NCBI RefSeq assembly: GCF_019649055.1
Contig: NW_026570248.1
Span: forward strand, 124,001 to 188,000
DNA length: 64,000 nucleotides
Reading direction: 5' to 3'
Source: Paramacrobiotus metropolitanus
Taxonomy: Eukaryota; Tardigrada; Eutardigrada; Parachela; Macrobiotidae
Part shown: piece after piece, positions 9,441-47,338 of the stretch
Layout of the letters: the number at the start of each line of letters is the position of its first letter
Position numbering within the stretch: the first letter of the stretch is position 1
The notes under the pieces: model-generated
What the model was told of the DNA's origin: nothing
The model's database searches: none
What the model saw: only the letters and a program-made list of their open reading frames with translations
Translations under genes and position numbers: made by a program

Positions 9441-9471
9441 GTAGAAGTAATGTGTGTACGATTACTTCTAC
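9441..9471. repeat. Perfect 11-bp inverted repeat (hairpin)
   Basis: The arms GTAGAAGTAAT and ATTACTTCTAC are perfect reverse complements separated by 9 nt. No gene is adjacent. Function unknown. Confidence 0.7.
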
Positions 9472-11100: not shown

Positions 11101-11160
11101 CGTTTGATTTGCAGTTGCAGATCCGCAGTGTGTAGCGGCGTTTGATGTGCAGTTGCAGAT
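11101..11160. repeat. Short direct repeat, 22 bp twice
   Basis: CGTTTGATTTGCAGTTGCAG at 11101 recurs at 11139 with one mismatch, a 38-bp period. It looks like a local tandem duplication. Confidence 0.6.
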
Positions 11161-11362
11161 ACTGAACGTGTTTTGGGAACCATACAATACATGTTTGGTA
11201 GTGAAGGGACCATACAAATTACCTTATTTATAACAGTGTAATAAGCAGGTGATTTTTTTGGTTTAACTGAAAACTGCAATCGACATTACACGAAGTATAC
11301 GACGGTACGCCATCCTTTACATCAGCTTGACCTTTCGACAGATTAAATTATTGTGGGTTTCA

Positions 11363-11408
11363 GTAAGGAATGTCCTGGACCTGATTGTCCAGCTGTACCA
11401 TTCCTTAC
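11363..11408. repeat. Nested perfect inverted repeat (46-nt hairpin)
   Basis: The outer arms GTAAGGAATG (11363-11372) and CATTCCTTAC (11399-11408) are perfect complements. Inside them, CTGGAC (11375-11380) pairs with GTCCAG (11387-11392) around a 6-nt loop. The unpaired spacers on the two sides are 2 and 6 nt. It is shorter than a usual microRNA precursor. Confidence 0.65.
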
Positions 11409-11866
11409 CTTATAGGCCAGTCTTTGTCTTAAATTACTTTTGATAAGGAAAGGAATAAGGAATGGACTACGAGATAACTCGCAAATTCAGTCTATTGAGA
11501 AGCACAGGTTTAAACTGCAACTTCACTTCACGAAAGCAAATCTGTAGCACGATGGTATAAAATGTACTGCAACATGAGCAGTATGAGCCGCACGTTTTAA
11601 CAAGCAATACATAATACAATATTTTTAATCATGTATTTTGTAAGTTTGACAATGAATGGGTAGCAATAGCAGACAAATATAGACAGAAAGTCAGGTATAT
11701 GCATAAAATAAACAGCTCTGTACAGGCACTCATTTACATTTACCTGGAAATTACATAGTTATTGGGCAGTATTATTCGGTCACCTGGAGTTTTTTCTAAT
11801 TGTTAGTATAAAACATGACGACTTGAGCCCCAATAGTAGTATCGGTTTGCAAACAGCTTGCGTAGT

Positions 11867-11880
11867 TGACGTAAACGTCA
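11867..11880. promoter_or_regulatory. CRE-like palindrome
   Basis: TGACGTAAACGTCA is a perfect 14-bp palindrome built of two TGACGT half-sites, the half-site bound by CREB/ATF-type bZIP factors. It lies about 1.2 kb upstream of the UNC-89 start codon. One site of this length may well be chance. Confidence 0.25.
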
Positions 11881-13061
11881 TTACGGTTTGACGGTAACGT
11901 AACGGTGTCACAGCCTGTTGTCTCAGATAGATTGTCTGATTTTAGTGCAACCAATGCACCACGTATAAATTAGCGCGGTATGAAAGACTTTGTAACAAAG
12001 CCGGTCAGGAAAGTATCATTTTGAATACATCATACATGTAATCAAAAGATTAAGGAAACGAATCGAATATTAAGTGGATCGGAATTCGACTTTTGTCTAG
12101 CAGGTACGCCGCGCGTAGCGACGGGACTGGGAGATACCGTTCTGTGCGCTTACACCAAATGCGCAGGACCAACGCAAGCATATCTCTAATTCAAAAGTCC
12201 AGATAAAACGTCATGCATTTGAATTATGAGTTTGTACGTACGATAGCCGAAAAAAGCAGGTATCGTTGCTAGTTTACAGTAGTTGAAAAGTACGAGTATG
12301 AATTATCATGACTGTAGCAGATCTGGAGACTTGTATGACAGACCAGGCGTAAGTTCAACAAATCTAAAAAAAGAAGCGCCTTATAAGGTTTCCGATGTTA
12401 TAAACCACGTACGAATTTTCGGTTGATCGGAGAGTTGAGGCATTCATTCTGATTGAATCTAGCACTGCAGCGATACATTTTCGTGGTCCACAAAACTTTC
12501 TCCCGTCCAATCGCCCCTGTCCACTTTGACTAGGGCTTTAAGGTAATTTTTTTTAGTGATTACAATATATAATTATTTTTTGATTTTTGCTGTTACCATT
12601 TTTTACCAACCTTTGGCACGTGCTATAAGTGATTGCATGCTCAAAAGTATCGTTGATGCGACGATTTGAATTACCTTAAACTGCATCCGAAATGATAACA
12701 ACAAGTTGTTCACTGGCACCGCACTAATTGTTGCTGAATTACTCTGATACTTGTGTGTTCCGCAGAAGCTTCCAGGCCTCCAGATGTTGTTCGAGTTCTT
12801 ATTTTGTTTCGTAACGCTTAGTCATACCGGCCGCAAATTCATAACGAGCTTTGTAATGTTGATGATGCGACTAACGAGCTCTGGTGGTGCAACTTTGCTC
12901 TGCTATCCCATTTAAGCAAACCCGGCTTCGTGGCATTTTTTTAAAAAGAGCCGGTATATTTTATACGCGGATTTTTTTACAGATCCATGTATACTGGGAG
13001 TGCTGGAAACTTCATGCAAACGAACTGTCTCGAATGATCACTGTCTTGAGCTGGGGCGATC

Positions 13062-16000
13062 ATGGATTCAAAAAGCCCTGGTACAAGGTCATCACGACGC
13101 ATCCTGAGATCGGAGGATGTCAGTGAATCCAGTGAAATATCGGGTGTTGCTCTCGAATCACGTTATTCAGGATCTATTAGCTCCCGGCTTCGGAATGTAA
13201 ACCGCGACGAATCGAGCGAAAAAGAGGCAGATGGAAGAGTATTAGAGGTACGATTATGCATGTCCAACATGGTTAGAGAAACAATTGTGAACTAAGAAGT
13301 GGCCGCAAAGCTTGAGATTACCAAAACCTCATGTGTCCGTTTGTGTCTGTAAGGGCGCAGCGTTACTACTACCGCTAGATACAGTAATGTCCAGGCGGCA
13401 TTTCAACTTTAAAATTATGTAAAAAATTTCCCGGTTATTTATCTATCTTTCTACAGCTACTCGTACTCTGTGAGTCTGTGTCATTGGCAGCTGTAAAATA
13501 AGCGCTGAGTTTGTAATGGGTATTGGATAACTGAGCATGTAAATTTTGTACAAACCGACAAATAATTTTTAAAAGCAACCAAATTTATCGTTTCATTGGG
13601 TGATAGGGAAGAAAGAGGAGTTTGAAAAACAATTTTTTTTTCTGGATACCGGTAACTGATGAATGTTTGTTTGTAGGCTGCATTGAACTGCTAAAAATAT
13701 AGTGAAGAAAATTTTCTGAAATTTTTTCATGTAGGCCTAAAACTTTTTGGACTAGCTGTATGGTGAATTTGGGGAACTTGATAATTCGGGTAATGGCATC
13801 CGATCTAACTGCAGTTAACAGCTGGTCAAACCCTAATAAAACTAAGCAGATGTGGGACGTTAAATTGTTTCTTACTGCAGTAGTTTAACCGTTAGCGACT
13901 TCTGGATGGGAATTTTTACTAACACCGGCAAAGCTACGTGCGATTTGGTTGTAATTGAATGTCCAAAAAAAGTGTGCATTTTGGTTGCAGAGCCTTGATT
14001 TATATGTTGCGATAGCGGATTACATTCCCGGTCCGGAAGACCCAGACGGACTGGCCGTCATCGAAGGGCAAGTTGTCGAGCTGTTGGATGCCGCGAATCC
14101 TAAGCGCTATTTGATGCGGACACGCCCCGTCAGGCATGTGGCAGTCCGACAGGGCTGGATACCATCCAGTTATCTGGAGAAAAAATCTGGCGAGAGTAAA
14201 CGAAAAACACGGGAGCTACCTGATATATCCAAAGTCTCCGGGGAATCAAAGGAAAAGGAAGCATTAGCGAAGCGGGAGTAAGGCATAGGCCTTGTAAGAT
14301 GGAGCTGTATAATACGCTGACAATCTGATTATTTCAGCGCTGTGATCAAAGACATAATCGACTCCGAGCGTCAGTACGTTCAAAAGTTAAAGTTCGTGCT
14401 GGACACGTACATTAGGGCACTAGACAGACCGTCGGTCCCGGAGAATTTGCGGGGGGAAAGCGAGATATTTCTTAACTGGAAGGAATTGTGCACCTTTCAT
14501 GAAACGTATGTTTGCTACAGATGTAGGAATGGTTTGCGTAGTTGTTCAGCGCACATGTTGTTGGATGCGGCACTTTATCACGGTCAAAGTCATCAATCCT
14601 ATCCGATTGCAAATTCCTGACTCGTAACCATTTGTCTTGCTGTTGTGTAGCGTCTTGCTGCCGGGACTTGAATTCTGTGTCGATGAACCACAATACTTGG
14701 AGAAGACATTTTTGAGGCTGGTATGTGTTGCGAGGGTGCTATTTTTAGCAGCCAGCGGATGCGGTCTACTTATCAATCATGATAGACTGCTCTGCTATAA
14801 GTGAGCCAACATAATTATAGGATTTTATATGGGCATTGCAATTTTATTAAAAGATACTGTGCTAAACAAGTTTCCCAAACTTTTTTTCTAAAATTAATGT
14901 CATAACCAGGAGCGGGACTTCGATAAGTTGACCACATACTGTCGCGATGAACCGGAGGCTCAAAAACTTCTGTCTGAATCACCAGAACTCTTGGAATTCC
15001 TCGGTGTAAGCTTGAATGGCGCACAAAAATATATTTATCAATGGAAAATATATTATTTTCAGAAAATTACCCCGTTCGGCAGTTTTGAAGAAGCGGAGAA
15101 AAACATTTCCGATCTGCTGCAGTTGCCCGTGCAGCGAGTGGCCGAATATCAAAATTTCATCAAAGAGATGATCAAGTACACCTCCCGTGCCAAGCAAGAT
15201 GTTACGGGGCTGCGCAAGACGCTAGATATGCTGTTGGGTGTGCCTCATCGCGCGCAGGACATTGAACTGCTCAAGTGCATCAAAGGTTACCGCGGGAATA
15301 TTCACAAACTTGGACGGATTATTCGCCATGTACGAAATTCAAGCTATAATTTTATGTTGTTGGCGCTGCGGCTTGGGGTTTATGAGCCATATTATAGGAT
15401 CCCGTAATTATATGGGAGGATGCCGATCCGAAAAAGAAAGCTAAAGATCGACATTTGTTTCTCTTCAAAGACCGGATATTAGTAACAAAAATGGTGCGGG
15501 CCGAATCGGCCGGCGGATCACCACCCCAGTTCAATAACAAAGGAGTAATTCAGGTAAGCGGTTCGTGATTATGCGGGTGAAGTACAGTACAGTAGCCTGT
15601 TCGATAAATTTTAGTAATTGACCTTTCCAACTTCCAGACAGTGCTTGGTCATATTTCGCGGCACATTTGCGCTGAGAATAGCTAAATTATCCAGACGCTT
15701 TTATTGGACGTTGCAGTCCAAATAACGGTCGAGGTTGAAACAACTTCTGGTGTTTTTTTAGCTGTTGAACATCGATATCCGAGATTTACCTGACGAGGAT
15801 GAACGGAACTTCGCCCTCGTGGACCGATCGGGAACAGCTGGCGGTGTTAAATTTCAAACCAAATCAGTTAATGTTAAACTGGCTTGGGTCGGTGAAGTGC
15901 GCAGCCTCATCAAGGGTGGTCTATGTAAGTTCAAGATCGTTTCTATAGAATAATGCTGTCGCAGTCTTTAGACGCTAAATTACGCAATTTATGATGATTA

Positions 16001-19000
16001 TGCAGCTAGGATAGGGAGTACTCTTACACCACGAAGCTCGCAAAAGATGATTGACTTTTTTAGCTGGACTTCCAATGATTGAAGTCGATGACCCAGATCG
16101 GTCCACTTTCAGTAATCTGGCCCGTAGTAATACGGAAGATTACGAAGATCGTTCGCGATCGGGCATGGTGGATGTTCGCAGTCATACCACGAAAACTGAA
16201 GCGCAAACCATGGAAGAAATGGTGCAGGACATGCAGGGCAAATATCTGCGAGTAATGACACGTAAGTATTTGGATTTTCTGTATACAAAGTAGCATTAAG
16301 ATGCTGCAGAAGCACGACATCCTTAAAGGGCAAGCGTTACGCAATACTTGGACGTGTAGGTTGGGAAAAGTAAAGTTTACCGTGTATTTATAGAATCACT
16401 GACACGCGAGGAAGAGTATCGGGAGCTGAAAAGTATATCTGAAGGTAGGCATGCACTTAAGAGATTATGGGAATGCTTTGTATGCGGTTGTGTCGTTGTT
16501 GTGTATACTGTAATAACCGTGACGTGCCGCTGTCTCTTTTTTCTATTCGTCTATTTTCGTACTATGCTGCGTTTGTCATCTTCATGTCTTTAACCCAACC
16601 GCCAAGCAAACCCGATAGTTGCTCGTATGTATTTGCATCCGCCGTCCAGATGAGTATTTTTCACTGGAATCTGAAACTACCCCTTCCACTTCGTCCTATT
16701 TCACAGCTCCTGAGTTTGAAGACGGAACTACATTACCGTATATGCGGAAATCGACTGAACGTATTTCTTGCGTTAGTAAGTTATTACTGTCAGCTTCCAA
16801 ATTATTTATCCATGGATGGTACAATTTTATGCGTTTTCAGTTGGTGAAACCGTCAAATTTGATTGCCGAGTATGTGGTAATCCTGTTCCGGAGGTCAGCT
16901 GGTGGAAGGATGGCAAAGAATTGGAGGCTGGGGAAAAGTACGAGTTCAAGGTGGACGGACAGATTTATACGCTTATTATCCGTGATACTATGCCGGAAGA
17001 TAGAGGACTGTATACTTGTCAAGCGCATAATAAAAATGGAACTGTTCGGTATCATCCCGAATTGCTGGTTCGTGGTGGTAAGTTAAAGAACTGAAAATTA
17101 ATTTATTATATACGATACGGCAATAAAGATCAGGTGTGATCATGTGCACTTGTGCTGCAACGTTGTAAACATGAACTTTGTAGCTTTTCCTACGGAACTT
17201 ATCGACCAGCACAACTGGGAATTTTTTCATCGCCGTTCTCATTCCGTTATGGATGTGGAATCCATCACATCGGAAGTGGCCAATCAGGACGACTTTGAAG
17301 ATCACGAACGAACATCGGCCAAACGAAAAGACGAGGATATGGATTTACCCGTAGAAGACCGGAAAAGGTGACGATCGTACCGACTTTTCCAATTGCTAAA
17401 TAATCGTAAATTTTATAGACTGCGGGAGGAAGGATTAGAGGAGCAACCGAAACGCCGACATGGCGACAACGCGCCGCCAAAACTGCATTTTGTACATTTT
17501 GAGGATGATACATTCACGCTGAAGCCAAAAGAGACGCTGAAAATTGAGATTCCGTACGAAGGCAAACCGAAACCCAATCTCAAGTTCACTAAAGACGGCC
17601 GACCACTTCCAGAATCCAGACATTACCAAGTCGAAGATGCAGATGAGACAGCGCGACTAACAGTTTGGGAAGTCAGTCCATCTGATGCTGGAACATACTC
17701 CATCATTGCCGAAAACCCGTATGGTGTGGACAAGGTGGATATCACAGTGGAAATTCGTGGCCTGCCGGATGCGCCGAGAAATTTCAAAGCATCTGAAATT
17801 ACTCCGGAAACATGTATGCTCAAATGGGATATCCCGGCTCATGACGGGGGTAACCCGATTTTGCGGTACAATATCGAGCGACGTGGCGTTGGCCGGAAAA
17901 CATGGCAGCGAATTGGCACAACGAGGGAAACACATTTTGAGGCCGAGAATTTACTGGAAGATCAAACCTATGAATTTCGAGTCGCCGCTGAGAATGCCGT
18001 GGGCGAGGGCGAAGGAGCCGAACTGCAGGAACCTGTTGTTGCGAAATACACGTTTGGTATGCGTTTGCAATTGTACATTTGTCCCAGATGAGATTATTTT
18101 TCAATTTTGTGTTTGTTGTTTTGCGATAGGTCCACCTGGTCCCCCGGATACACCCGTCATATCGAACATGGCCAATCGGACGTGCACAGTGTCCTGGCAG
18201 CCACCATTGGCCAATGGGGGCTCACAGATTGTTGGCTACATACTGGAACGGCGCCATTCAATTAGCCCGCGCTGGGTAAAAGTCACCAACGATCTAATCG
18301 AATCAACGGAGTTTGTTGTGCCGGATTTACTGTCATGTAAGAGTGTTGACCGCCGGTGTCATGCTGATTAAAAGTGTCAGAACACAGTGGATGTATTTTC
18401 AGCTACTGAATATGAATTTCGCGTAATTGCCCTCAATAAAGCTGGAGAAAGCCAACCTAGTCAACCGAGTCGACCAGTAAAAACACGCGCTTGGAGCGTT
18501 GCCAGTGAAGAAGATGATGCGATGAGTGGATCAGGAAGGGGATTCCGACCCTCAATGGAACGCTCGATTAGCAATGCATCTCTGCTTGATGATGGTAGGT
18601 ACTGATGTAATCAACTACCGGTTTAAACCAATTCCCATTTAAACGGCTTCTAAAAAGTTCAGAAACTATTCGCAATAATTTCTTCATCAGTAGTTCGCAG
18701 TCAGTTCAAATACTGTAGGTAATTTTTTCAAAACAAACAGACACATTGCGGTGTTTTGTTAGACAATGTTTTCCGCCGGACGGACTCGGTGTTAAGTGGT
18801 TCGAGAGAGTCCAGCGTCGCCCGTCGGATCGTAGAGCGTCGGCTCAACGGTGACCGGTCTCCTGATCTGCGCCGAGAACTGTCGTTTCAGAGAGAAGGCA
18901 GTTACGGATTCGAAGGGGAAACTGTGGAAGAGCGCATCGAACGACGTAATCGTATACGCAGTCGTGCAAGTCAGTCTAGTCAATTGGACGAGCTTGAAAA

Positions 19001-22000
19001 GAAATTCGCGGCTGAAGACCGCCAGATCAAAACTCAGCGTAGTCGTGAGGACACGTTTGCGTGGGACACGAGTACCGCTTCCGCAGACCGAATGCGAGTC
19101 ATACCGGAAAAGCGGAGTTTCGATGATGTGCAGTCGGATACGGCGCTAGAGAGAAAGGTTCCATACACGAAACGGGCGGAATCCAATCTTAGTTTCGACA
19201 GCGAATTTTCCAGTGAATTCGCCAAGGCTAATGGAGATTTGAGCGGTTTGTATTCTCGTTGTTGCTTTAATTATGTTAATTTCCCATCTGTTTATTAATA
19301 TGAGGTGTTTTGAAATTTAGGTATGCCTGGAGCGGTAGTGCAGGAGGACACAATTTTTGTAGAGAAAGGTCGATCTCTTCACATAAATATTCCTTTTTTC
19401 GGAAGCCCGACTCCGACAGCCGTATGGAAACATAATGAGACACCAATTCATGAATCGCCTCGCGTTCGGATTGATACGCTGGGCAATGAAACTTCGCTTA
19501 ACGTCCGACAAATGGGCCCGGAAGATGGTGGCGTTTATTCATTGATCTTGGAGAATGAAACAGGAAAACTGGAAGCGCATATCAATGTTAAAATCCTAGG
19601 TACACAAAGACTTTTTTATTCATAATGACTGACCGCATCCATGTGGCAGTGATGTTCTGTAACTGAACTAGTGTGACGATGATTTTTAAGATTTTTCGTT
19701 TTATTGCAGACGCCCCTTCGGCCCCTCGAAATTTAGTTCCTGTGACTAGCACACCGGATTCAGTTACTGTACGATGGGATGAACCTGAACATGCGGGAGG
19801 TGGCCCAGTCATCAATTATGTCCTGGAAAAGCGCATTAGCGGTCGCAAACTGTGGCAGCATGCTACGGAAACGGCAGCTACAGAAGCCACCGCGGATAAC
19901 TTATTGGAAGGCCAGGAATATTATTTCCGAGTGAAAGCCGAAAATCGTTATGGTGTCGGACCAGAAGTGGAAACTACGGAACCAGTTGCTGCTAAGTGGC
20001 CATTCAACCCACCCGGCCCTTGTGCTGCACCCGAAGTCAGTGACATCCGCAAGTCATCGGCAATATTATCATGGGAGCCGCCAGCTGATGATGGCGGCAG
20101 TCCGGTCACCGGGTATTTCATCGAAAGGCGATATGCCGGAGCGCAGCGCTTCATGAAAATTACACATGAACCAGTGACTAACACCGTTTTTATGGTAACG
20201 GATCTGGTGTTGGGATTTGATTACGAATTCCGAATCATCGCTATTAACCAAGCAGGAGAAGGTCTGCCAGGATCTTCTTGTTCGCCTGTCAAACCAGCAG
20301 GTCAGTTAATTCAACGCACAATTTTAAAGGCATGAAAATCTTCTGCTACAAATGATTACATAAGCAATAAATGTTTTGACTTTTTCCTTGTTGCCTGCTT
20401 GACCATCTCTTATGCATAAGTGCACAGTACTATACTTGTAGTATGGCTATTTAAAATTGATAAAGCGATAGTTGTGCTTCGTTTTTAAGATTCATCACTG
20501 CATAGCTTTACTTTACTAGAAACGCCTAACGAATACGCGCCGAGAAAATTACCGGAAGGTAAAAAGATTGTGCAAGAAATCGAAGATGTGGAAATGACCG
20601 AATACCGGGGTAAAAAGCATGCACTCTTGGAAGAGGATAAAAACCTCGTGGTTAGACAGCAAAAGGGCGCTGCTGATCGGGCCATGTCAGAAATAGCATC
20701 CACCGTTGACGATGTCGAGTCCATTCGAGAGGAAGTCTCGATCTCTGAGCGCACTGATACTGTTCGTAAAGTTATCGGTAAACCTCATACTCCCAAACAA
20801 CCCGGGGTCGCTGAGGAAGTCGAAACAGAAGATCGCTCCAGACTGTCAGCTAAAAAACCAAAGAAAACGCGTGCTCCAACTGACGACGATGAAGAATTTG
20901 ATGAGATTTCTGAAATAAGTGAAATAACGGAACATATCGAGCGACGTACCGTTAGGCGCACGAAAGCGAAGCCGAAAAAGGTCATGGTGGATATCGGCAC
21001 TGACGCTGCACCCTTCCAGCAACCACAGTTACGACGCCCAGGCAAAGATCAGAGGATGATTGCTGTTAAGGAGGAAGAGGATTTAACACTGGAAGTTCCG
21101 TACACAGCCGCTCCTAAGCCTGAATTCACTTGGCTGAAGGACGGAAAAGTGTTAAAAGATTCAAAGCATGTACAGACTGATTCAACCGAAGAACGAGTAA
21201 TTATTACCGTGAAAGACGTCAGCAAGACCGACGCCGGACGGTATACACTGATTGCGGAGAACTTTGCTGGAATCGATAAAATTGATATTGGCGTTCAAGT
21301 TTTAGGTATACGCACGCCACCCTTGCTATTCTGCTTGTGAATATTTGCTTACACTGTTTCTTTTGTGTTTAAAGGCCCGAAAGAAACCAAAGAATCCGCT
21401 ATGATGACGGAATCAGCAGATCAGGCCCCTAAACTATTCCTTTCGAAGAAATTCGACAAAGGCACTCAAGTAGATGAACATGAGCCGTTGGTTCTGGAAG
21501 TGGCTTACAGTGGTCATCCCGTTCCCAACATAACCTGGATGAAGGATGGCAAAGTTTTGACAGCGACTGAAACGGTTACGACGGAAGTTACAGAAGATAT
21601 CGTCCGACTGGTTATTTTGGACAGCCGCACAAAAGATACTGGAACGTACTCTATACTGGCGCAGAATAAACTTGGCAACGATAAAGTCGACATCGGAGTG
21701 AAAGTCATAAGTAAGGCGTCGAACGTTTCTTTTGTCTATACAACTTATTTACTGCTTTTTTGACAGAACACGAAGAGGTGCAGGTGGATCGAGAAGTACG
21801 CCAGGCGCCGAAAGTACAAAAACCTAAACAGTACAGTAAAGCTGTACACGTGCAAGAAAACGAAGATATACGAATCGAAGTTCCAGTCACTGGCACACCG
21901 AAACCGGAAGTCCAGTGGCTGAAGGATTCTAAGCCGATTACTCGGGATCAACGAGTGCAGACTGACTTCGATGAAGAGAAAGCTGTTCTGACAATTGAGA

Positions 22001-37000: not shown

Positions 37001-40000
37001 CTTAGAAATCCAGTGCAAATTGCAAGGAAAACTCAATTTTTAGCTGTGCCTTCGGCGCCCGAAAATCTGCGTGCTACGGATATTAAGCCAGAATCTGTGA
37101 AGCTAGTCTGGAAAGCTCCAGCGGATGATGGAGGATCACCCATTACGGCTTATGGAGTATTCAAACGACCAGCAGGATCGGAAGATTGGGAGGAGATTGG
37201 CGAAGTGCCGATCACTTCCATGACAATCCCGCAGCTGGAAAGTGGTGCCACCTATGACTTTAAAGTGGTTGCCAAGAATAAACACGGCGAAAGCGAGCCG
37301 GCGGAGCTGAAGGATGTGCAAACCAAGACTACCATCAGTAAACCAGAATAGCCTTATGATATGCTTTGATGGCAGTGATTACCATTGCTGCTGTTACAGA
37401 AGTGCCATCGGAGCCTGGAAAACCTACGGTTGAATGCACAGAGACAGAAGCGAATATTGAATGGACCGAGCCGAAGACCGACGGTGGTGCGCCGATTCAG
37501 GGCTACCATGTGTATATCAGGGAGATCGAAAGCACTAACTGGAAAAAGGTGACAAGAACACTGGTTACCACGAAAAACTACACCTGCCAAAACTTGGTTG
37601 TTGGAAAAATCTACGAAGTACAAATAACGGCAACTAATGATGCCGGAGAAAGCAAGGCCAGCGTTCCAAGTGACCAGTTCTTCCTAAAGAAACAACAGAA
37701 AGGTTTGTTAAATTTACGCACGAGAAATTGTGGTAAACCGTGAACTTGAATTAAGCTTTTGATAAACTGAGTTTTGTGAAGGTCCACCTTCTCCTCCTAC
37801 CAACCTTCATGTAACGGACGCTTCCCCTGAAAACGTCAAAATTGCGTGGTCTCCACCGGAAAGCGATGGCGGCGCTCCTATTACCGGTTATCAAATCAAA
37901 AACGCCGTACGGGCCGCAAAGCATGGCAGGATGTGGGAGAAACTGCCGATTTGACCTTTACAGTTCCTGGCTTAGTCGAAAATAGCAACTACGATTTTGC
38001 GGTATTTGCCGTTAATAAGAACGGCGCCAGTGAACCAGCTGTTTTGGAGGACGTTTACGCCAAGTATTCCTTCCGTGTGCCATCGGCGCCGGGTCAACCA
38101 AAAGTAGTGGAAACCACCGAGACTTCTGCTACCATCGAGTGGACACCGCCGGAAGACGACGGCGGTGAGCCGGTCGCCGGTTACGACGTCTATCTTAAGA
38201 CGCGTACGTCAACACACTGGCGAAAGGTCACTAAAACCGTCACTAAGCAGACCAAATTCACTCTGGAAAACCTGGAAATGGATATCGAATACGAAGCCCG
38301 AGTAGTGGCAGTTAACAAGGCTGGAGAAAGTGAGCCGAGTAAGGCGTCGGAGCCCTTCAAACTGACTAAGCAACGACCAGCCCGCAGAGATTCGGTTAAG
38401 GGGGAAACGACAGAAGCACCTAAAGGTGCAACGGACACCACGGAACCTGAGAAGATGGAGAAACCGTCTTGTCGTACTGATCAGGATACTCTGGAGGTGG
38501 TGGAAGGCGAAGACGCTGAGTTCGTTGTTGAATTCACCGGCAAACCAACACCAACCATTACATGGAATAGTACAGCCGACACCTTCCAAAACAAAACCAG
38601 ATTCGAACTGAAGACCACCGAAAAGACTACCAAATGCACTATCAAGCACTGCCGGTTAGAAGACACCGGAGAAATTCTAGTTACCTTTAAAAACAAAGGT
38701 ACTGTACATACATGAGTCGCACAGCTGCTGGTTTCAGTGGAGAATACAACAGTGAACAGTTCAATATTTTTGCGTTTACAGCGGGAAAGGCCGAAATGCC
38801 ACTGAACCTTAAAGTGAAACAGGCCGTCCAGGCTCCTCGAATTTTTGATTATCCCGAAGTAGTCGAAGCACAGACTGGAGAAAATCTGTCCATTATGGTG
38901 CGATTCGAGGGTGTCCCATATCCAGACGTGGACTGGTTCCATGCCGGCAAGCCTGTTAAAGAAACCCGCAGAGTGCGCGTGGAGAGCCTTCAAGATTACG
39001 AATCTCACATTGTTATAAAAAAGGCGGAACAATCTGACGTTGGATCGTATCTTGTCCGGGCCACCAACTCCGAAGGATCTGCTGAAGCGACGATAATTTT
39101 AAAACTGTTAGGTAATATAAAAACTCGCGATGTTTCCGTTGGTTGTCAAATGTTTTCATGATTTATTGCTTTCAACAGGCGTCCCATCGGCACCAAGAAA
39201 TCTCAAAGTCAAGGAAATTGGCCCAGAAAAAGCGACAATTACCTGGGAACCACCGGAATCCGATGGAGGAGCCCCGATTCAGCGGTACATTGTGGAGAAA
39301 CGTTCGGCCGGCCGTGTTACGTGGTCACGTGTGGCTGCTACCCAATCGCTTGAGCAAGAAATTGGGGAACTAGCGGAGGGTAAAATGTACGAATTCCGTG
39401 TGGTGGCTGAGAATAAATACGGGCCCGGAGAGGGGGCGGAAGTGGGACCAGTGCTGGCTGCTTTCACATTCGGTAAGAATAATGATAATTTGTCTTGCTA
39501 CCCTACAGTTTGACAACGTGTACGGAAGTTGTCTATAGCATGGCTACGTGCCGTAGCCACTACACTACACGGTGTATTACGGCTGTGTCAAGCGTACGCG
39601 TTTTTCGTTCAGATGTTCCTGGCCCCCCTGGAACGCCGGAATGTTTAGACACAACGGAAACATCCACTAATTTAGCCTGGGATCCGCCCGAGACTGACGG
39701 TGGCAGCCCGATACTGGGATATCACATTGAACGGCGAACCGGAAAGGTCGGACGATGGTCTAAAATCAACAAAACACTGGTGACGACGACGAAATTCAGC
39801 GTAACGGATCTGGTGGAAAGTGAGACGTATGAATTCCGCATTTTGGCGGAAAATAAAAAAGGCGTTGGGAAGCCGAGCGCGCCGTGCTCTCCCATGAAAA
39901 CTTTAACTAAACCCAGGAAACCCAAAGCCGATACGTCCATTATTGAACCTTCCGTTAGTCAAGCCCCAGAAGCTAGCAAAGCCGAAAAAGGTAGTACTTT

Positions 40001-43000
40001 ACTTAAGAGCAAATCTCAGTTTAAAAACTTAGCAAATTTAGTAGCTCAGTAGAATACGAATGCGGAACGATCTGAAGTGTATTTAAAATTTCTCGCAGAA
40101 GATGAGCGTACCGTGGACGACACGATCGGCTCCGATGTCGATATGGAGGAAGAGGAAGCAATCCCGGAAGATGAAGAGCAAGGCTCCAAACCCGAATTTA
40201 TCACCCCTCTGGAAACCCAAATCGTGCGGGAAGGTCAAAAGGCCATCTTCCAGTGCGAAGTTATCGGCGAGCCAAAACCATCGGTCATCTGGCAGAAAAA
40301 CGGAAAGACCATACGCGACAGTGATGAATACCGCTATGTCGTTAATGAAAACACCTACAAATTGATTATTAAAGAGGCATTCATGGAGGATGCTGGAGTC
40401 TTTGTCGCTTTGGCACGCAATCCAGCCGGAAAGGCAACCAGTGACGCTGACCTGATCGTTAAACAAGGTTTGCTGTGTTTTAGTTTAGTCTTTTTAAGAG
40501 GTATAACTAATTTGATTTGTGCCTTTTACAGACATTCCGGACAAAACGAGGAATCATGTTGTTCCCACGTTTGTCACTCCATTAAAAAACCAAACCGTCA
40601 CTGTTGGGCAGACGCTGACATTACGTGTTAGAGCTTCAGGATTTCCTAATCCCACGATTAAATGGTGGCGCGGCGAAAAGGAGATTCTTCCTGATTCGAG
40701 AATCTCCGTTTCGGACGATGGTCATGGCGGCTCGGTTTTGACCGTCAGGAAAGTTGTGATGAATGACGCTGATTTGTACCGCTGTACAGCAACCAATGCA
40801 GCGGGTGAAGCGTCTACAGAATGCACCATTACGGTCGAAGGTGAGCAACGTACATACGTACCATACTGCGGAAACCTCATTGCGCCCGTTAGCAGTGGGT
40901 TGTTATAGTTATGCGATAACAAAATACTGCTCTACGCTTTTAATTGGCTACAATGCTGACGGAAAAGTTTTGCAGAGAAAACGGAAATTGCTGGCCACGA
41001 AGCTCCTTATTTTACGAAGAAACCCAGAGAGCAGACAGTCAACGAAGGCGAACCTCTGAATCTGGATTGTGCATTTGTCGGAGTTCCTGCTCCAACGGTG
41101 AAATGGTTTTTGAATGATCGATTAATTCAGTCACACAAAGACGTGACAATTACCAGCGATGCAACAACCTCCTCTCTGCAAATCGCGGCTGCCATGCCGG
41201 AAGATTCCGGTGTTTATACCGTCGAGATATCTAATTCAGTCGGACAAGCTCGTTGTTTTGCTGCCATCAACGTAGCACGGCTGCCGGTCAAACGGAAGCC
41301 GCATGGCGTGGCGCCGCGATTCGTCCGCCGCTTCACGGATGCTGAAGCATCCAGTGGATACGACGTGCACTTTGAATGTCAAGTGACCGGTGAGCCTATG
41401 CCGACAATTAAATGGCTCTTCAACAAGGACGAGATCACCGAAACCGGGTCGAAGTACGAAATTGTGCACAAGGAAAGAATCGGATGGAGCCGGTTGCTTA
41501 TTCGTAACGTAACTAGAGAAAGTGTGGGTCAGTACACAGCGGTTGCTACGAATGAAGAGGGCGAAGCGCAATGCTCGGCGTACCTCAATGTCGTTGAACC
41601 GAAGCCGACTGGTGACAGAGGGGATACATCCGGTCGACCTAAAGGAGAAATTCGTGCTCCAGCCTTCGCCAAACCTCTTCGCGATACAGAAGTGGTAGAA
41701 GGCGAAAAGGTTAAGTTAGACTGCAAACTGACCGAGCCCATGGAGGTGGTAGTAAAATGGTAAGCTTTCAAAATAACTGCTAAGCGTTGCAGCTCAGTAA
41801 CCAAATGAGCACCATTTTTCTAGGTTCAAGGACGGTATTGAACTGAGTGAAGGACCCAAATACAGTATCGATGCCCACCCGGACGGTACGCTGGTCTTGC
41901 AAATTAAGGAATCCCGAAAGCGAGACGAAGGCCGATACAGCTGCGTTGTCACTAACGAAGCTGGACGAGCCAAAACGAACTGTGAACTTAAGGTCACCGT
42001 GCCCAAAGATGACGATTCGCGTCGGGACGATTCTGGCTTACGAGGACGGCGACGTGTTGCAGGTAAATAAAACTTTTACTTCCTCGGGATTTTTTGTAGA
42101 ACATCGTTACCTTGTTGTACACACAAGAATCATCAGCGACATGATCTTTTCTATTGCGCTTTACAGGTCCACCTTGGCCTTTGGCGTCAGCCCCTTGGAT
42201 CAGTAACCTCACCGGAAGTGGTTGTTTACTTTCTTGGAAGCCATCCATAACGGATTCCACCGAAGCCACGCCCATTACGTACATAGTGGAAATGTGCGAG
42301 GTCCCACGAAGCGACTGGCATCCTATTGCGCACGGCATTCCTAATACTGAATACGAAATCTTGGGATTACTGAAACCCGATAGGAACTACCAGTTCCGTA
42401 TCCGAGCAGAAAATAAATTTGGTGTCAGTGATCCGTCACCATATGCTCGGACGGACCGAAAATTACCGGCGCCTGACCATGAACACTACGCAGTGAAACC
42501 ATCAGGTCAGAATTGATGAATGTTGTTGAAAGTGTTTGAGTAATCCCTTTTTCAAATACCGTAAAACACTGCGTAACTGTAAAATTATTATCTTGTTTGT
42601 TGATTGCAGATCGTAAAACATTTGAGAAAGAACCCCGTGAATACGAAGTCCAGCGTCCAGAACACGGTCTTTTTGGTGAAAAACCAAGATTTTACCGTGA
42701 AAACAACGATGTGCAATTTGGACTGGAAGGAGAGACCGCCACATTAGAAGTATATTGTTATGGGTATCCGCAGCCGAAAATCACGTGGTACCTTCGGGGT
42801 GAAGAAATTCGCTCTGGCGGTCGCTTTGCTAGTCGCTACGGTAGCAGCGGTCAAGTCCAGCTATCCATTGACAAACTGTCTTTCCGGGATGTCGGAGAAT
42901 ATACGTGCCGAGCAGTGAATGAACACGGAGAAGCCGAGATCCAACTGCGGTTAGAAGTAGCAGGTACGGTAACAGTTTTGTCCATTTTGACCGGAACCGC

Positions 43001-46000
43001 GCCGTAATGAGCAATTATCTTTTGCAGACCCACCTGTTTTCATTGAGTCGGTTGTGGATGGCATCTTCACAGTTGGTCAAGCAGCTCGACTAGACTGTCG
43101 GGTGGATGGCACGCCCTTCCCGGAAGTGCGTTGGCTGAAAGACTGGCGTCCGATTGCCCAGAGCTCCCGTGTGGAAATGGTGACAACAGAAACCGGGCAC
43201 TGTACATTAATCATCCATGATGTCCGTGTATTCGATGGGGGCTTGTATACCTGCGAAGCCAAGAATATTGGAGGCACTGCGCTATGCTCAGCCAATGTTC
43301 TGGTCGAGTCTCGGCCAGCCGCGACAGCCGCACCGTTCGATATACGAGTTCGACGTGTGCATCTCAAGAATAAGCGTGTCACCGATTTCTACGACTTCTT
43401 TGACGAGATTGGTCGCGGAACACAAGCGGTTGTGAAGAAGGCTGCCGAAAAGCTTTCCGGGCGCAATTATGCCGCAAAGATTTCCTTTGCTCCGCCCAGA
43501 GAACGGCAGTGGTTGGAGAATGAAATGCATATATTAAATGAGCTGCAGCATCCTAACATAGTCCGCTTACATGATGGATACGCTGGGAATTCTTACGTTG
43601 TCCTTATGCTGGAACTAGCAAAAGGTGGCGAAATTATCCCTCGCATGGTGCAGAATAAGACCTACGGCGAGGATTACGTACGCAGCATTATTAAACAGAT
43701 GCTGCAGACGTTGGAATACATCCATGAGAAGGGTTTTGCGCATTTGGACTTGAAGCCGGAAGATGTACTTTTCCAACATCCTGGCTCGGATAAGATCCTT
43801 TTGGTGGATTTTGGATTGGCTCAGAAGATTCCTCCAAGCGGTCATGTGATTTCCGAGTTCGGCACACCGGAATTTGTATGTCCCGAAATTGCCACCCGAA
43901 TGCCGTGCGGAACACCAGCTGATTTATGGAGCACCGGTATCATTACATACCTATTACTGTCGGGTGTGTCACCTTTCCTTGGACCAACGGATCGTGATAC
44001 ACTGCTGAACGTTCAGCGATGTGAATGGGATTTCAATCATCCAATCTTTTCGCACATTTCACCGGAGGGAAAAGATTTCATCTCATCGCTGTTGAAAAAA
44101 GAGCCCACACGGCGGTTAACGGCCAAGGAGGCTCTAGAACATCCGTGGTTTGGGGTATGCTTTGGTCTCTTGTTGTTTAGTGACTTTGAAATAATTTTGA
44201 ACGCGTATTTTAGTCTACATCCAACGTGGACATCAGTAGTCGTCCATTGGAAGATTACTGGGCTAAACGAAGGCAAAAGGTCAGCCCATTCGTTACTTTG
44301 ATCAACATGGAACTGGCACGTATTATAATTTATTCTAATTTATGGTTATAGCTTGGACAGCAAGCGGTGGTCAAATACGCCCGTCGCCGACCATTGCATA
44401 TGTGTCTGCAACATCCTCAAGGCTTGCTGTACCCGCCTGACATTGCGGATGGAGTTAATTTGGCTCACGATATGCGCGTGCGCGAGGGCAGTCCAGGAGC
44501 AAAAAGCCGCACTGAACGCGACGATCACAGCCGCCGCTCGTCGGTTTCCGAAGACTTCCGTGACTACCATTATTCGTTCTTTGGTCAAAGCGATTCGCAC
44601 TATCAAGTCGGACCCGAGACGGAATTACTACAGCTGCGAGATCCGGATCTACCGGTACGGAAATTTGTCTGTTAATTCCATAAGACAAATCAACTATTTA
44701 AAACAATTCGTTGATTGTTTTGCTTTATCAATTTTTCTTTGGTAGGCCCGCATTCGAGAATACCGTCGTTTAGTGACGGATCCATCAGGTCATGCCAGTT
44801 TCCGTGTAAAAGCTGATAATAAACTGTGGGGTCTGAAACCGGCAGTCAAGGAACGCCGGCGTATGATGGAGATCATGGATGACGAAGGTTTCGGTCAAGC
44901 CCAGCAGCTGGCGGCGCGCAGGAAGCGCAAGCGCATTTTAGCGGAACAAGACGAGGAATACGCACCGTTCTTCCGCGAGAAACTCAAAGATACTGCTTTC
45001 GCTGAGGGCAAACCCGTTACTTTGCGTACGGTGGTCATCGGGTGCCCACAACCGGTAATTCACTGGTATCATCATGACATTTTACTGGAAAACGGTCCGC
45101 ACATCCGAACCATGTCCAATGAAGACGGCACGTGCTTACTGACCCTGTCACCGGCTACCGGAGTGGAAGCCGGGGAATATAAGTGCGTAGCGCGAAACAA
45201 ACTAGGAGAAGCAGTTTGCCGCGCTACCTTAATGATTGGAGGTATGAAAGCATCGACTAAATATTTTCGTAATAAGAAAAATTCTAAAATAGTAATTTGA
45301 TGCAGTCGTCCCCGATCATCCTTCCTGGCCCGTTCTGGAGTACGTGAGCCCGAACGAAATGACCCTTACCTGGGAACCACCGGAATTCGACGGCAACGCC
45401 GAAATATTGGCCTATAAACTCGGAATATCGAGGCCGAGAAGATGTTGCGTGGAAAGTTGTATCCAGTGATCTGCTACACGAAAACGTCGTGGTGCAAAAC
45501 CTGTGCCCAGCTCATATTACCGGTTCCGTGTCGCTTGCCGAAATATGTTTGGATGGAGCTCGTACAGTTTTTCGTCCAACGAATATCGCACGCTTGTCGC
45601 CGGTAAAACTGCAAATCTTTGGTAAATTACTTGGCGGAATGCTGCAGCATATATCTTTTCAGGTGAATCGCCAAGAATGATTGAAGAGCCTCATCCCAGC
45701 TCTGGCTTGAAATGGCGGGAACGTGGAGCCGAACCGAAACCGGAAAAGCCGGTACGATTGATTAGCCTGATGGAGAAATATCCGGCGTCTCTCTATGAAG
45801 ATACATCACCGGAAGACCAGTACGACTTCTACGAGGAAATTTTCCGGTATGTTTTAAAAAAGGCATGTGGGATAAAAAGGTCTCAACTTAATATTCATTG
45901 CCTCGGTGGTGATTTCTGAGTTAGTTGATTTCTTAGTTGTCAGCACGGCCAAGTTGAAACTATGGTCTCGCTTGGCATCGTTTTATGAAATGCATTTGTT

Positions 46001-47338
46001 ATTTCAGAGGAGAGTTTTGCATTATCCGGAAGTGTTTTGACCGGAAAAACCAGCGTTCGTTTGCCGCGAAGATTATTGATATCCATGCACCGGATGCACG
46101 ACAAGAATACGACATTCTGAGTGGACTGAAGCACGAACGTATCGTCGAACTGCATGCGGCCTACACGTTCAACCATGCCTTCGTACTAGTCGAAGATCTT
46201 CTAGATGGTTACGATGTGTTGCATTATCTGTGCGAAAAACAAGTATACACGGAAGAAGATGTCGCACAGATTACGCGACAAGTATTGGATGGGTTGCAGT
46301 ATTTGCATTACGATGGCATCGCGCATCTGAACCTACAACCAGAAAATGTTGTCAGCAAAAGCAGAAGGAAACTGCTTATCAGTTTGGTAGACTTTGGAGC
46401 TGCCAAGCGGCTGCCGGAAGATGGCGCAGTTATTAAACTGCCCACTGTTCCTCTGGAGTTTACACGTAAGTACCGCGTAGTATCCGATACTGTCGTACCA
46501 AAGCATTTTGAAAATTAATTAGTTGACCCTGATGCGATCTCTTTATTTACAGCGCCAGAAGTGCTGACCGAAAAAGCAACAACAGTCAGCGCTGATATAT
46601 GGGGTGTTGGTGTTCTTGTATGGATCATGTGAGTCAGTTTCTTTCACAGATTATTTGTGTTCCATTACATTGTTTATATGTAGCTTTATCTATGATTTCC
46701 GTACTACAAAACGAACAATACGAAAATCATTAGACATCCAATTACTTGCTTTTATGTAAATGATGTAGATTTGGGACCGCACTCGAAGTGGCTATTTTAG
46801 ATGTAAATAGTAAATACGTAGTTCATTTTTGACCTTTCGCAGGCTAAGCGGGACTCACCCATTCTTGGGAGAAGATGATGAAGAAACGTACAATAATGTT
46901 TGTGGAGTGCGTTACCGTTCAGCAGATCTGTACCGTGGTCTGTCGGTCGAATCGACCAGATTATTAATGCAAACGCTGAAAGTGCTGCCGGGGTGAGTAC
47001 AGCTTAAATTGCTAATTAATATGACAACAAAGGGCATCCTCATGGCGGAAATTAGCACTGACGTATACTAATTACCCAAGTACTTCTGACATAGTTAATC
47101 AAGGTAATGAATCATATGATGTATTTAAAATTAATCAATTTCCAGAAATCGTCTTTCTGTGGATGAATGTCTGGAGCATCGGTGGATTATTCCCAACGAA
47201 ATTGCCATCAAGAAGCGGGAAAAATCTACCTTCCACTGCTATCACCTGGAGCAATACAGGAAGCAACGCAATCGTCATTTAACGCACCGCCATTTAACCG
47301 ATCAAAGTCTACTTCGTGCCTTTAATCCCAAGGGATGA
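13062..47338 (+). CDS. unc-89: UNC-89/obscurin giant muscle kinase with expanded FN3 array
   Basis: One continuous gene of about 65 exons encoding roughly 8,780 residues, a size usual for this family. UNC-89/obscurin is an M-line scaffold of the sarcomere. Order: Ser/Arg-rich N-terminus, SH3, DH-PH RhoGEF, Ig1, Ig2-FN3-FN3, Ser/Arg linker, Ig3-FN3-FN3, Ig4-8, PEVK-like region, long FN3 array, Ig9-10, FN3 pair, Ig11-15, FN3-Ig-Ig-kinase 1, linker, Ig-FN3, kinase 2. Exon 1 (13062-13247) resembles the UNC-89 N-terminus, and its ATG is the only good one before the SH3 exon. From the PH exon to the last FN3 nearly all introns are phase 1, so domain exons are symmetric and can be skipped or duplicated in frame. 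The FN3 core recalls titin/twitchin, but SH3-DH-PH plus the twin-kinase tail fix the identity. Single-base frame breaks occur near 29084, 35262, 36146, 36800, 37900, 45422 and 45517. Stop TGA at 47336-47338. Confidence 0.9.
13991..14277 (+). other. unc-89: UNC-89 exon 2: SH3 domain
   Basis: After an acceptor TTGCAG the exon reads YVAIADYIPGPEDPDGLAVI, then GQVVELLD and GWIPSSYLE. These are the ALYDY-, ELLD- and WxPxSYL-type elements of an SH3 fold and match the UNC-89 SH3 (YIAIQDY, GQIVEVLD, GWVPGSYFE). A basic linker follows. The exon ends in phase 2 so that ALAKRD joins the DH domain, as in the worm protein. Confidence 0.85.
14338..15924 (+). other. unc-89: UNC-89 exons 3-8: DH-PH (RhoGEF) module
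   Basis: The DH domain is spread over exons 14338-14505, 14651-14720, 14910-15005 and 15063-15329. It reads IIDSERQYVQKLKFVLDTYI at the start and LPVQRVAEYQNFIKEMIKYT in the conserved helix that contacts Rho-type GTPases. The PH domain is in 15398-15553 and 15762-15924 (DRHLFLFKDRILVTKM, then a C-terminal helix around LAWVGEVRSLIKGG). The family activates Rho-class GTPases; which one is used here cannot be told. The intron 15006-15062 is 57 nt, in frame and stop-free. Confidence 0.85.
16064..18594 (+). other. unc-89: UNC-89 exons 9-16: linkers, Ig1, Ig2, FN3-1 and FN3-2
   Basis: Exons 16064-16261, 16394-16444 and 16650-16775 are a charged linker. Ig1 is one exon (16841-17077) with the CRVCGNPVPEVSWWKDGKEL core and a DRGLYTC motif. 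An acidic linker (17184-17367) follows. Exon 17419-18056 holds Ig2, in which the usual cysteines are replaced, and FN3-1 (TPETCMLKWDIP, YEFRVAAENAVGEGE). FN3-2 is split over 18130-18336 and 18403-18594. This Ig-FN3-FN3 block is like the super-repeat of twitchin and titin. Confidence 0.8.
18763..20300 (+). other. unc-89: UNC-89 exons 17-19: Ser/Arg-rich linker, Ig3, FN3-3, FN3-4
   Basis: Exon 18763-19245 encodes about 160 residues rich in Arg, Ser and Glu without a fold I recognise (RRTDSVLSGSRESS, VEERIERRNRIRSR), probably disordered or coiled. Exon 19321-19599 is Ig3 (PFFGSPTPTAVWKHNE, EDGGVYSLILEN). Exon 19710-20300 carries two FN3 domains (APRNLVPVTSTPDSVTVRWD; YYFRVKAENRYGVGPE; YEFRIIAINQAGEGLP). 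The donor after the linker, GTTTGT, is weak. Confidence 0.75.
20490..23261 (+). other. unc-89: UNC-89 exons 20-24: acidic linker and five Ig domains (Ig4-Ig8)
   Basis: Exon 20490-21305 begins with a charged linker (EEFDEISEISEITEHIE) and ends in Ig4. The exons 21375-21710, 21767-22090, 22190-22516 and 22926-23261 each carry one Ig domain and start and end in phase 1. All share a V(P/A)YxGxPxPxxxWLKDGKxL strand and a KxDAGTYT(L/M)xxxNxxGxDKxxIxV tail. The canonical disulfide cysteines are absent in this set, as often in intracellular muscle Ig domains. Their closeness to one another points to tandem exon duplication. Confidence 0.8.
23340..27394 (+). other. unc-89: UNC-89 exons 25-26: PEVK/KSP-like charged region
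   Basis: Exon 23340-26783 is 3,444 nt long without interruption (1,148 codons), and exon 26861-27394 continues it. The composition is dominated by Glu, Lys, Thr, Val and Pro, with almost no aromatic residues. A motif of the form E-EE-(V/I)-ETKTTT-VTKK--KP-VTEV recurs at about 23820, 23995, 24115, 24370, 24525, 24760, 24960, 25070 and 25220. It occupies the place taken by the KSP-rich region in worm UNC-89 and resembles the elastic PEVK part of titin. The end of exon 25 (IYVIENEAGEKIEIEVEE) and exon 26 look less repetitive. The long antisense frames here are shadows of the codon bias. Confidence 0.8.
27458..29792 (+). other. unc-89: UNC-89 exon 27: seven FN3 domains in one exon
   Basis: This 2.3-kb exon holds FN3-5 to FN3-11 without introns, unlike the one-domain exons after it. 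Six of them form three copies of a two-domain unit: a first type ending (Y/E)DFRVTPxN and a second type reading PTIEWxIP, FxxEER, SFEVPF and ELRVVSVNExGES. Thr-rich linkers (TTTTKTTTTKTT) flank the last domain, FN3-11. Exon length is one base out of frame: the five-A run at 29082-29086 is one base too long for the FN3 reading to continue, and the protein similarity resumes immediately after it. Confidence 0.8.
30259..38698 (+). other. unc-89: UNC-89 exons 28-46: tandem FN3 array (FN3-12 to FN3-31) ending in Ig9
   Basis: Mostly one FN3 domain per phase-1 exon: 30386-30679, 30977-31303, 31513-32166 (two), 32236-32550, 32608-32916, 33043-33354, 33445-33756, 33813-34118, 34175-34486, 34637-34939, 35114-35412, 35473-35763, 36019-36317, 36383-36981 (two), 37044-37337, 37400-37702, 37782-38698 (two plus Ig9). 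Small linker exons lie at 30259-30312 and 31365-31433. Two domain types alternate: type A (VKLxWKAP, YDFRV, KHGxSEPAE) and type B (DGYNVYLREKGKKTWKKVTK, HTLTDL, EYEVQVTAVNEVGESEPSP). Exons 40, 42, 43 and 46 are each one base short, always within or beside a run of A or G, with the FN3 similarity continuing in the next frame. Confidence 0.8.
38782..42062 (+). other. unc-89: UNC-89 exons 47-53: Ig10, FN3-32, FN3-33, Ig11-Ig15
   Basis: Ig10 is 38782-39111, FN3-32 is 39179-39472, and FN3-33 with a linker is 39613-39990. Ig11 with an acidic leader is 40099-40467, and Ig12 is 40532-40840. Exon 40976-41759 holds Ig13, Ig14 and half of Ig15, which finishes in 41824-42062 across a phase-2 intron placed at the conserved Trp codon. 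Unlike Ig4-8, these Igs have the classical Cys/Trp/Tyr-Cys pattern (CQVTGEPMPTIKWLF, GRYSCVVTNEAG), as in the C-terminal Igs of worm UNC-89. Confidence 0.8.
42167..44154 (+). other. unc-89: UNC-89 exons 54-56: FN3-34, Ig16, Ig17 and protein kinase domain 1
   Basis: FN3-34 (42167-42505), Ig16 (42610-42963) and Ig17 plus kinase 1 (43028-44154) reproduce the FN3-Ig-Ig-kinase order of UNC-89, including a shared KDWRPIxxSSR segment in Ig17 (KEWRPIVESSR in the worm). Kinase 1 has a glycine loop (IGRGTQAVV), the VAIK lysine (YAAKISF), an alpha-C Glu (WLENEMHIL), the catalytic Asp in HLDLKPED (Asp at 43747-43749), DFG at 43807-43815 and a PE-type activation-segment end. The catalytic-loop Asn, the second metal ligand, is Asp (43762-43764). 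It is a relative of the titin/MLCK kinases and is largely intact. Confidence 0.85.
44214..45846 (+). other. unc-89: UNC-89 exons 57-61: interkinase linker, Ig18, FN3-35
   Basis: Exons 44214-44279 and 44352-44654 and the first part of 44746-45241 are a linker of about 190 residues. It contains SHYQVGPETELLQLRD and the RVKADNKLWGLKPAVKERRR region, which align with the SHYQIGPDTYL and GVRNRDITVRERRR stretches before the worm interkinase Ig. Ig18 ends exon 44746-45241. FN3-35 is 45306-45602 and has two opposite one-base frame breaks, near 45422 and 45517, between which the FN3 similarity runs in another frame. Exon 45663-45846 leads into kinase 2. Confidence 0.75.
45780..47338 (+). other. unc-89: UNC-89 exons 61-65: protein kinase domain 2 and C-terminus
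   Basis: Kinase 2 begins at the YDFYEEIFRGEF segment and spans 46008-46465, 46553-46628, 46843-46992 and 47146-47338. The glycine loop is degenerate (RGEFCIIRKCF). The VAIK lysine is present (FAAKIIDI) and DFG is present (46390-46398). In the catalytic loop HLNLQPEN the catalytic Asp is Asn (46330-46332), so phosphotransfer should be absent or very weak. The later lobe is recognisable (ADIWGVGVLVWIMLSGTHPF). The tail after the kinase is short and basic and ends FNPKG. Confidence 0.85.

Follow-up and report, generated by a model that had tools for sequence, protein, structure and literature searches.

The obscurins of ecdysozoans follow a common plan, with an N-terminal RhoGEF, Ig domains, and two C-terminal kinases (PMC12812942), and with an Ig-FN3 pair between the two kinases of the invertebrate UNC-89 proteins (PMC10129394). 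The first of these kinases (PK1) is reported to be a pseudokinase and the second (PK2) to be probably active (PMC10129394; also PMC7957886); in Drosophila PK1 the catalytic Asp has given way to Gly, a replacement reported as strict across arthropods, and the catalytic-loop Asn to Asp (PMC10129394). A review states that invertebrates have a single obscurin gene (PMC12812942). Here we describe a gene from the tardigrade Paramacrobiotus metropolitanus, found in a window of 64,000 nucleotides (contig NW_026570248.1, here C28, bases 124001-188000), that is very probably a tardigrade RhoGEF-bearing UNC-89/obscurin with a rod made mostly of FN3 domains, the main array of which arose by internal duplication of A-B exon pairs. 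Searches of the organism's own genome covered 169.8 Mb on 533 contigs, from this one tardigrade species. Neither the cuticle-collagen N-domain of nematodes (PF01484) nor the arthropod cuticle domain Chitin_bind_4 (PF00379) was detected; both are weak negatives, because the 14 controls gave no match to either family.

The family assignment is carried by the two ends of the predicted protein. Obscurin (1v1c) is the best of the SH3-only chains in the list of Protein Data Bank (PDB) matches for the SH3 domain (2.4e-14); the DH-PH pair matches Trio-type GEFs in the same database, and the PH domain also matches that of UNC-89 (1fho, 5.3e-8). In a tree of eight sequences, kinase 1 groups with PK1 of Drosophila obscurin (8ak2) with support of 89/88, apart from twitchin and DAPK3, though DAPK and one twitchin rank slightly above it in a plain PDB search. 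The original prediction had named the gene UNC-89/obscurin by eye, and the SH3, PH, and kinase 1 results support that name. Several features that mark membership of the family are present: an SH3 domain and RhoGEF (DH-PH) at the N-terminus, Ig and FN3 domains between the RhoGEF and the kinases, and two C-terminal kinases separated by a linker, an Ig, and an FN3. A rod composed mainly of Ig domains with two or three FN3, which is usual in described UNC-89 proteins and does not define them, is not found here; FN3 outnumber Ig about 2:1. The gene also departs from the twitchin/projectin pattern of a single kinase, repeated Ig-FN3-FN3 units, and no RhoGEF. No kettin/zormin-like N-terminus of the titin/sallimus kind was seen when Ig 1 to Ig 8 of the window gene were compared with a kettin-like protein of the same genome; the five best pieces are 22-25% identical, which reads as ordinary Ig-Ig similarity.

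The other giant muscle proteins of this genome are encoded elsewhere. A separate twitchin lies on contig C11 (about 53-89 kb, - strand), with an Ig-rich start, Ig-FN3-FN3 units, and one kinase, 73% identical to that of Aplysia twitchin, in which the HLDLKPEN motif is intact. A separate gene at C28:318326-348236 (+ strand), some 150 kb downstream of UNC-89, has a helical-looking N-terminal region and Ig-linker repeats, which we take to be of the kettin type; its model holds no FN3 and overran the last Ig exon into what appear to be other genes, and its end is our own cut. Because both ends of the window gene match the UNC-89 plan, and a twitchin and a kettin-like gene are present separately, we assign the window gene to UNC-89. 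A further giant gene, modelled on the - strand of contig C101 at about 47677-137763 (23,767 residues, four frame breaks), shares its tail with the window gene and is discussed below. A search of the genome with the DH-PH region returned seven matches, six of them at the window gene and one elsewhere on C28, and no second copy of a RhoGEF-bearing UNC-89. The remaining match (C28:486681-486998, 31% identical) is about 315 kb downstream of UNC-89; it is perhaps Trio/Kalirin, which is a guess.

The domain content was established with Pfam on ten pieces of the predicted protein, amounting to 6,725 of its 8,782 residues and omitting a stretch rich in E, T, and K, several linkers, and kinase 2, which was scanned separately. 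Pfam recognizes 18 I-set stretches (2+1+5+6+4 across the pieces) and 33 fn3 stretches (2+2+4+5+9+7+2+2). Profiles built from the gene's own domains give 19 Ig pieces, equal to 18 domains, and 42 FN3 pieces, equal to 35 domains, seven of which are split by an intron or a frame break; these profiles derive from the window gene itself and so are not independent evidence. The two FN3 that Pfam misses sit in the diverged piece with FN3 5-10, where it finds four of six. The ratio of FN3 to Ig is thus 33-35 to 18, about 2:1 and far beyond chance, in agreement with the earlier statement that FN3 are roughly twice as numerous. The companion statement, that UNC-89/obscurin proteins have been described as mainly Ig, also holds for the ecdysozoan accounts (PMC3388081, PMC12812942), which include the two FN3 of C. 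elegans.

From the N-terminus, the order of domains is SH3-DH-PH, Ig, Ig-FN3-FN3, Ig-FN3-FN3, five Ig, and an E/T/K-rich stretch of 1,326 residues; then come 27 FN3, two Ig, FN3-FN3, five Ig, FN3, two Ig, kinase 1, linker, Ig, FN3, and kinase 2. Pfam, run as a profile-HMM check on the predicted protein, recovers the proposed SH3-DH-PH at one end and FN3-Ig-Ig-kinase-Ig-FN3-kinase at the other. The features of the gene, in window coordinates, are as follows.

13062..47338, +: complete UNC-89/obscurin gene as modelled, from start to stop codon, reading through seven frame breaks
14003..14182, +: SH3 domain (Pfam SH3_2, 9.5e-5; obscurin SH3 1v1c, 2.4e-14)
14342..15233, +: RhoGEF (DH) over several exons (Pfam, 3.8e-25; Trio 6d8z, 2.1e-36 for DH-PH)
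15300..15905, +: PH domain over several exons (Pfam PF22697, SOS1/NGEF-like, 8.2e-18; UNC-89 PH 1fho, 5.3e-8)
16831..17770, +: Ig 1-2 (Pfam, own profile)
17765..18494, +: FN3 1-2, types A and B (Pfam, own profile, FN3 tree, identities)
19323..20299, +: Ig 3, then FN3 3-4, types A and B (Pfam, own profile, FN3 tree, identities)
21023..23263, +: Ig 4-8 (Pfam, own profile)
23261..27394, +: E/T/K-rich stretch, 1,326 residues (E 19.5%, T 14.6%, K 12.2%, V 11.0%, P 7.5%)
27394..29659, +: FN3 5-11, diverged block (own profile, FN3 tree, identities)
30386..38373, +: FN3 12-31, array of A/B pairs on 17 exons (Pfam, own profile, FN3 tree, identities, exon phases)
38461..39119, +: Ig 9-10 (own profile)
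39181..39917, +: FN3 32-33, types A and B, start of the block common to the C101 gene (own profile, FN3 tree, alignment)
40188..42013, +: Ig 11-15 (own profile)
42184..42459, +: FN3 34 (own profile)
42681..43317, +: Ig 16-17 (own profile)
43378..44151, +: protein kinase 1, with AAK, HLDLKPED, and DFG (Pfam, 1.1e-59; Drosophila obscurin PK1 8ak2)
44152..44961, +: interkinase linker, 171 residues
44962..45249, +: Ig 18 (own profile)
45306..45602, +: FN3 35, with two frame breaks (own profile)
45821..47194, +: protein kinase 2, with AAK, HLNLQPEN (catalytic Asp replaced by Asn), and DFG (Pfam, 3e-45)
47195..47338, +: C-terminal tail and stop codon

The FN3 array consists of a repeated FN3(A)-FN3(B) pattern, and Ig domains are absent from 27.4 to 38.4 kb. 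Across FN3 16-31 the mean identity of a domain is 31% to its following neighbor and 51% to the domain after that, and 15 of the 17 exons between 30.3 and 38.6 kb are in phase 1 at both ends. A tree was made of 87 FN3 domains over 100 columns (35 from the window gene, 26 from the C101 gene, and 26 of the 28 twitchin pieces from C11, two half domains having been dropped); in it FN3 12-31 fall wholly within two clades that hold window domains only, 11 of type B (99/78) and nine of type A (97/92). The alternation of identities, the two-clade tree, and the phase-1 exons together argue that duplication of A-B exon pairs built up the main array. Fifteen type A domains of the window gene (FN3 1, 3, 5, 7, 9, and 32 and the nine of the array) form one clade with 15 C101 FN3 (98/94), in which FN3 5, 7, and 9 are nearer to the C101 domains; none of the 26 twitchin FN3 in the tree is inside this joint clade. 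The FN3 5-11 block likewise has two types (FN3 5, 7, and 9 versus FN3 6, 8, 10, and 11), which alternate up to FN3 10. Three Ig-A-B units flank the array (Ig 2-FN3 1-FN3 2, Ig 3-FN3 3-FN3 4, and Ig 10-FN3 32-FN3 33), and an Ig-FN3(A)-FN3(B) unit of this kind may have been its seed. An explanation of the additional FN3 as assembly stutter was rejected, the closest two copies differing by 31% at the protein level.

The gene model was obtained with a dynamic-programming gene finder trained on the gene's own long reading frames, with the ends and the frame breaks set by hand. It predicts a single gene on the + strand, 34 kb long, with 63 exons and 62 introns. An ATG at 13062 starts a Ser/Arg-rich leader able to splice to the SH3 domain, coding ends at 47335, and the stop codon TGA occupies 47336-47338; the coordinates of the original prediction are therefore exact to the base. 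The three longest introns of the model measure 743, 466, and 409 bases, and past the first intron none exceeds 466; with no large gap among them, nothing in the introns suggests two genes. Seven frame breaks (29087, 35256, 36158, 36792, 37909, 45420, and 45509) had to be read through, every one of them within FN3 domains and several adjoining runs of A or G. Nanopore and Illumina reads went into the published Paramacrobiotus sp. TYO assembly (PMC8277472), and the breaks are probably nanopore assembly errors that remain where the short reads failed to polish.

Several observations weigh against a single UNC-89 gene with an internally grown array, and they are considered here with the alternatives to which they lend weight. 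The pair rule is broken by B-B neighbors at FN3 13-14 and 18-19, and FN3 10 and 11 are alike; growth by pair duplication included a few irregular steps. In the FN3 tree 25 of the 84 inner branches are well supported and many forks are unresolved. FN3 6, 8, 10, and 11 (27739-29659) form a clade (100/99) whose neighbors in the tree are seven twitchin FN3 (85/87) and whose branch has a length of 1.34; this lowers confidence in a purely internal origin and makes a twitchin link or origin possible for these four domains. It is this placement, together with the joint clade of window type A and the FN3 of the C101 giant, that would favor capture of the FN3 core, or of part of it, from twitchin or titin by exon shuffling. 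However, none of the 26 twitchin FN3 enters the two clades of FN3 12-31; FN3 6, 8, and 10 occupy the B position of an alternating row, which suggests that the four are perhaps diverged B domains, as the long branch would also allow; and the C101 link fits common ancestry of a collinear UNC-89 tail. We regard capture as unlikely. The earlier suggestion of a titin/twitchin-like core accordingly does not survive for FN3 12-31, where twitchin capture was rejected and regular Ig-FN3-FN3 units are lacking, but is possible for FN3 6, 8, 10, and 11.

The unity of the gene can be questioned as well, since C. elegans UNC-89 uses three promoters (PMC12812942) and the window gene is a predicted one. All 62 introns are GT-AG by construction, the finder permitting no others, and this agreement gives no independent support; five of the seven frame breaks that needed read-through fall within the FN3 5-31 run. 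A set of two or three genes, lying side by side or overlapping (RhoGEF-Ig, FN3-rich, and kinase), that never form one protein would agree with the gaps at 22517 (409 bases) and 29793 (466 bases); against this, coding is unbroken on one strand with modelled introns of at most 466 bases past the first, and the two ends belong to one known family and stand in that family's order. We judge separate genes to be slightly less probable than capture. Least credible, at the margin of what deserves consideration, is a protein of titin/twitchin type, not an UNC-89, to which a RhoGEF was added. The excess of FN3 over Ig would suit such a protein, and in a plain single-sequence search of the PDB, DAPK and one twitchin kinase slightly outscore obscurin for kinase 1. 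However, the genome has a twitchin and a kettin-like gene of its own, and an SH3-DH-PH start with two kinases split by Ig-FN3 is the ecdysozoan UNC-89 plan (PMC12812942, PMC10129394). A single UNC-89/obscurin with an array of largely internal origin is thus the interpretation that we prefer.

The catalytic residues of the two kinases are distributed in the reverse of the way reported for invertebrate UNC-89. In both the window and the C101 genes, kinase 1 retains the catalytic Asp (HLD[LI]KPED, with AAK and DFG), and in kinase 2 (HLNLQP[ED]N, with AAK and DFG) its position is taken by Asn. The two genes are 55% identical in kinase 1 and 55% in kinase 2, and the occurrence of the same residue state in two genes this far apart argues against sequencing error. 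Kinase 1 could then be active and kinase 2 a pseudokinase, so that the roles look swapped relative to invertebrate UNC-89, for which PK2 of insects and nematodes was taken from descriptions; with its Asn-to-Asp change, kinase 1 may itself be atypical.

The second giant gene has the same tail as UNC-89. A single alignment joins the last 2,110 residues of the window protein, which begin at FN3 32, to the C101 protein (5-2106 with 21583-23751, 41.8% identity), and the common tail is FN3-FN3-Ig5-FN3-Ig-Ig-PK1-linker-Ig-FN3-PK2. By the window-derived profiles the C101 model has 44 Ig and 26 FN3. Its middle, 13,200 residues within borders that we chose (4200-17400), contains 22.6% E, 14.4% V, 12.4% T, and 8.1% P, together with three Ig matches, one at its end; Ig-FN3 repeats lie between this E/V/T/P-rich middle and the tandem-kinase tail. 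Two collinear blocks of the N-terminal Ig region can be aligned with the kettin-like gene, one at 28% across 972 columns and the other at 46% across 304; the second is well above the 21-28% of the remaining pieces in the same search, except for one short piece at 36%. The search with the window DH-PH gave no match on C101; with this and the alignment of its N-terminus to the kettin-like gene, a plain second UNC-89 was rejected. Two of the helical reading frames upstream of the C101 gene, considered as possible spectrin repeats, gave no match in a Pfam scan. As modelled, the C101 gene is titin-like, with a kettin/sallimus-like start on an UNC-89-like end.

The C101 arrangement may have come about by fusion, or may be left over from a two-kinase "connectitin." This protein has been proposed as the ancestor of titin, and the cnidarian connectitin is described as having two or three C-terminal kinases as well as a RhoGEF (PMC12198301); the accessible text of that paper does not mention tardigrades. 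Kinase 1 of the window gene and that of C101 are each 42-43% like that of Drosophila, and the eight-sequence kinase tree gives a three-way fork, compatible with duplication of the C101 and window genes before or after the tardigrade-arthropod split. We put forward tentatively, as less likely than not, that the sarcomere giants of tardigrades were rebuilt as a set: an UNC-89 of FN3 pairs, a C101 titin reaching from Z-disc to M-line, and swapped kinases. C101 as one polypeptide could span Z-disc to M-line in the manner of vertebrate titin, and its design could have evolved separately or have been kept from a two-kinase ancestral titin.

By analogy with the family, the N-terminal SH3-RhoGEF end of the window protein would take part in Rho signalling, and the protein is predicted to be placed and anchored at the M-line. 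The kinase region may act as a scaffold, the interkinase region being elastic in the family (PMC12812942). Between these ends the FN3 array would form a long, uniform, and probably extensible rod that fixes the distance from the Rho end to the kinase end, a spacer that may be longer, stiffer, or differently binding than an Ig rod; the E/T/K-rich stretch could serve as a disordered spring.

Three neighboring genes were recognized in the window. A TRAP-gamma gene (translocon-associated protein subunit; 48899-49447, + strand, Pfam 2.3e-77) begins about 1.5 kb downstream of UNC-89, and the gene is flanked by a CUT-domain protein (1344-2753, - strand, Pfam 1.2e-33) and, on the opposite side, by a sodium/hydrogen exchanger fragment (57891-58439, - strand, Pfam 1e-8). 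Four further flanking reading frames of the window matched nothing in a Pfam scan.

In a literature search, the titles and opening parts of abstracts among the papers listed did not describe any FN3-rich obscurin, most subscription journals and sequence-database annotation being outside its reach, and no paper on a tardigrade UNC-89 came up; the published gene prediction for the species (PMC8277472) may already carry the protein unnamed. The tardigrade gene suggests that the conserved part of UNC-89 is its signalling ends and not its middle, and a rod that is mostly FN3 offers a natural test of the rod's role. The presence of the UNC-89 tail on the titin-like C101 gene bears on the descent of titin, twitchin, and obscurin from a common ancestor. 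The Asp/Asn swap would make the model in which a pseudokinase regulates a kinase in obscurin testable where the roles should be reversed.

In nematode UNC-89, too, the first Ig domains are followed by a charged repeat, and the rod of Drosophila obscurin is dominated by Ig domains. With titin/connectin, sallimus/kettin, and connectitin the window protein shares a low-complexity stretch, an Ig/FN3 rod, and a kinase (PMC12198301), but the kettin-like N-terminus of titin/sallimus/kettin is on the C101 gene, with none seen on the window gene. Twitchin/projectin has a long FN3-rich rod in common with it, and Ig-A-B units occur at the array edges in the window gene; twitchin/projectin differs in having one kinase, no RhoGEF, and a regular Ig-FN3-FN3 pattern. 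Drosophila obscurin has the N-terminal SH3/RhoGEF (PMC9886281), two kinases with Ig-FN3 between them, and a PK1 in which, as in the tardigrade, Asp replaces the catalytic-loop Asn (PMC10129394); its PK1 has Gly at the catalytic Asp (PMC10129394), which the tardigrade retains as Asp. C. elegans UNC-89 shares the SH3, DH, PH, and Ig domains and two kinases (PMC3388081), with Ig and FN3 between the kinases (PMC12812942). It is described with two FN3 and many Ig (PMC3388081) compared with 33-35 FN3 and 18 Ig in the tardigrade, and whereas its PK1 is reported as a pseudokinase and its PK2 as probably active, the tardigrade protein keeps the catalytic Asp in PK1 and loses it in PK2.

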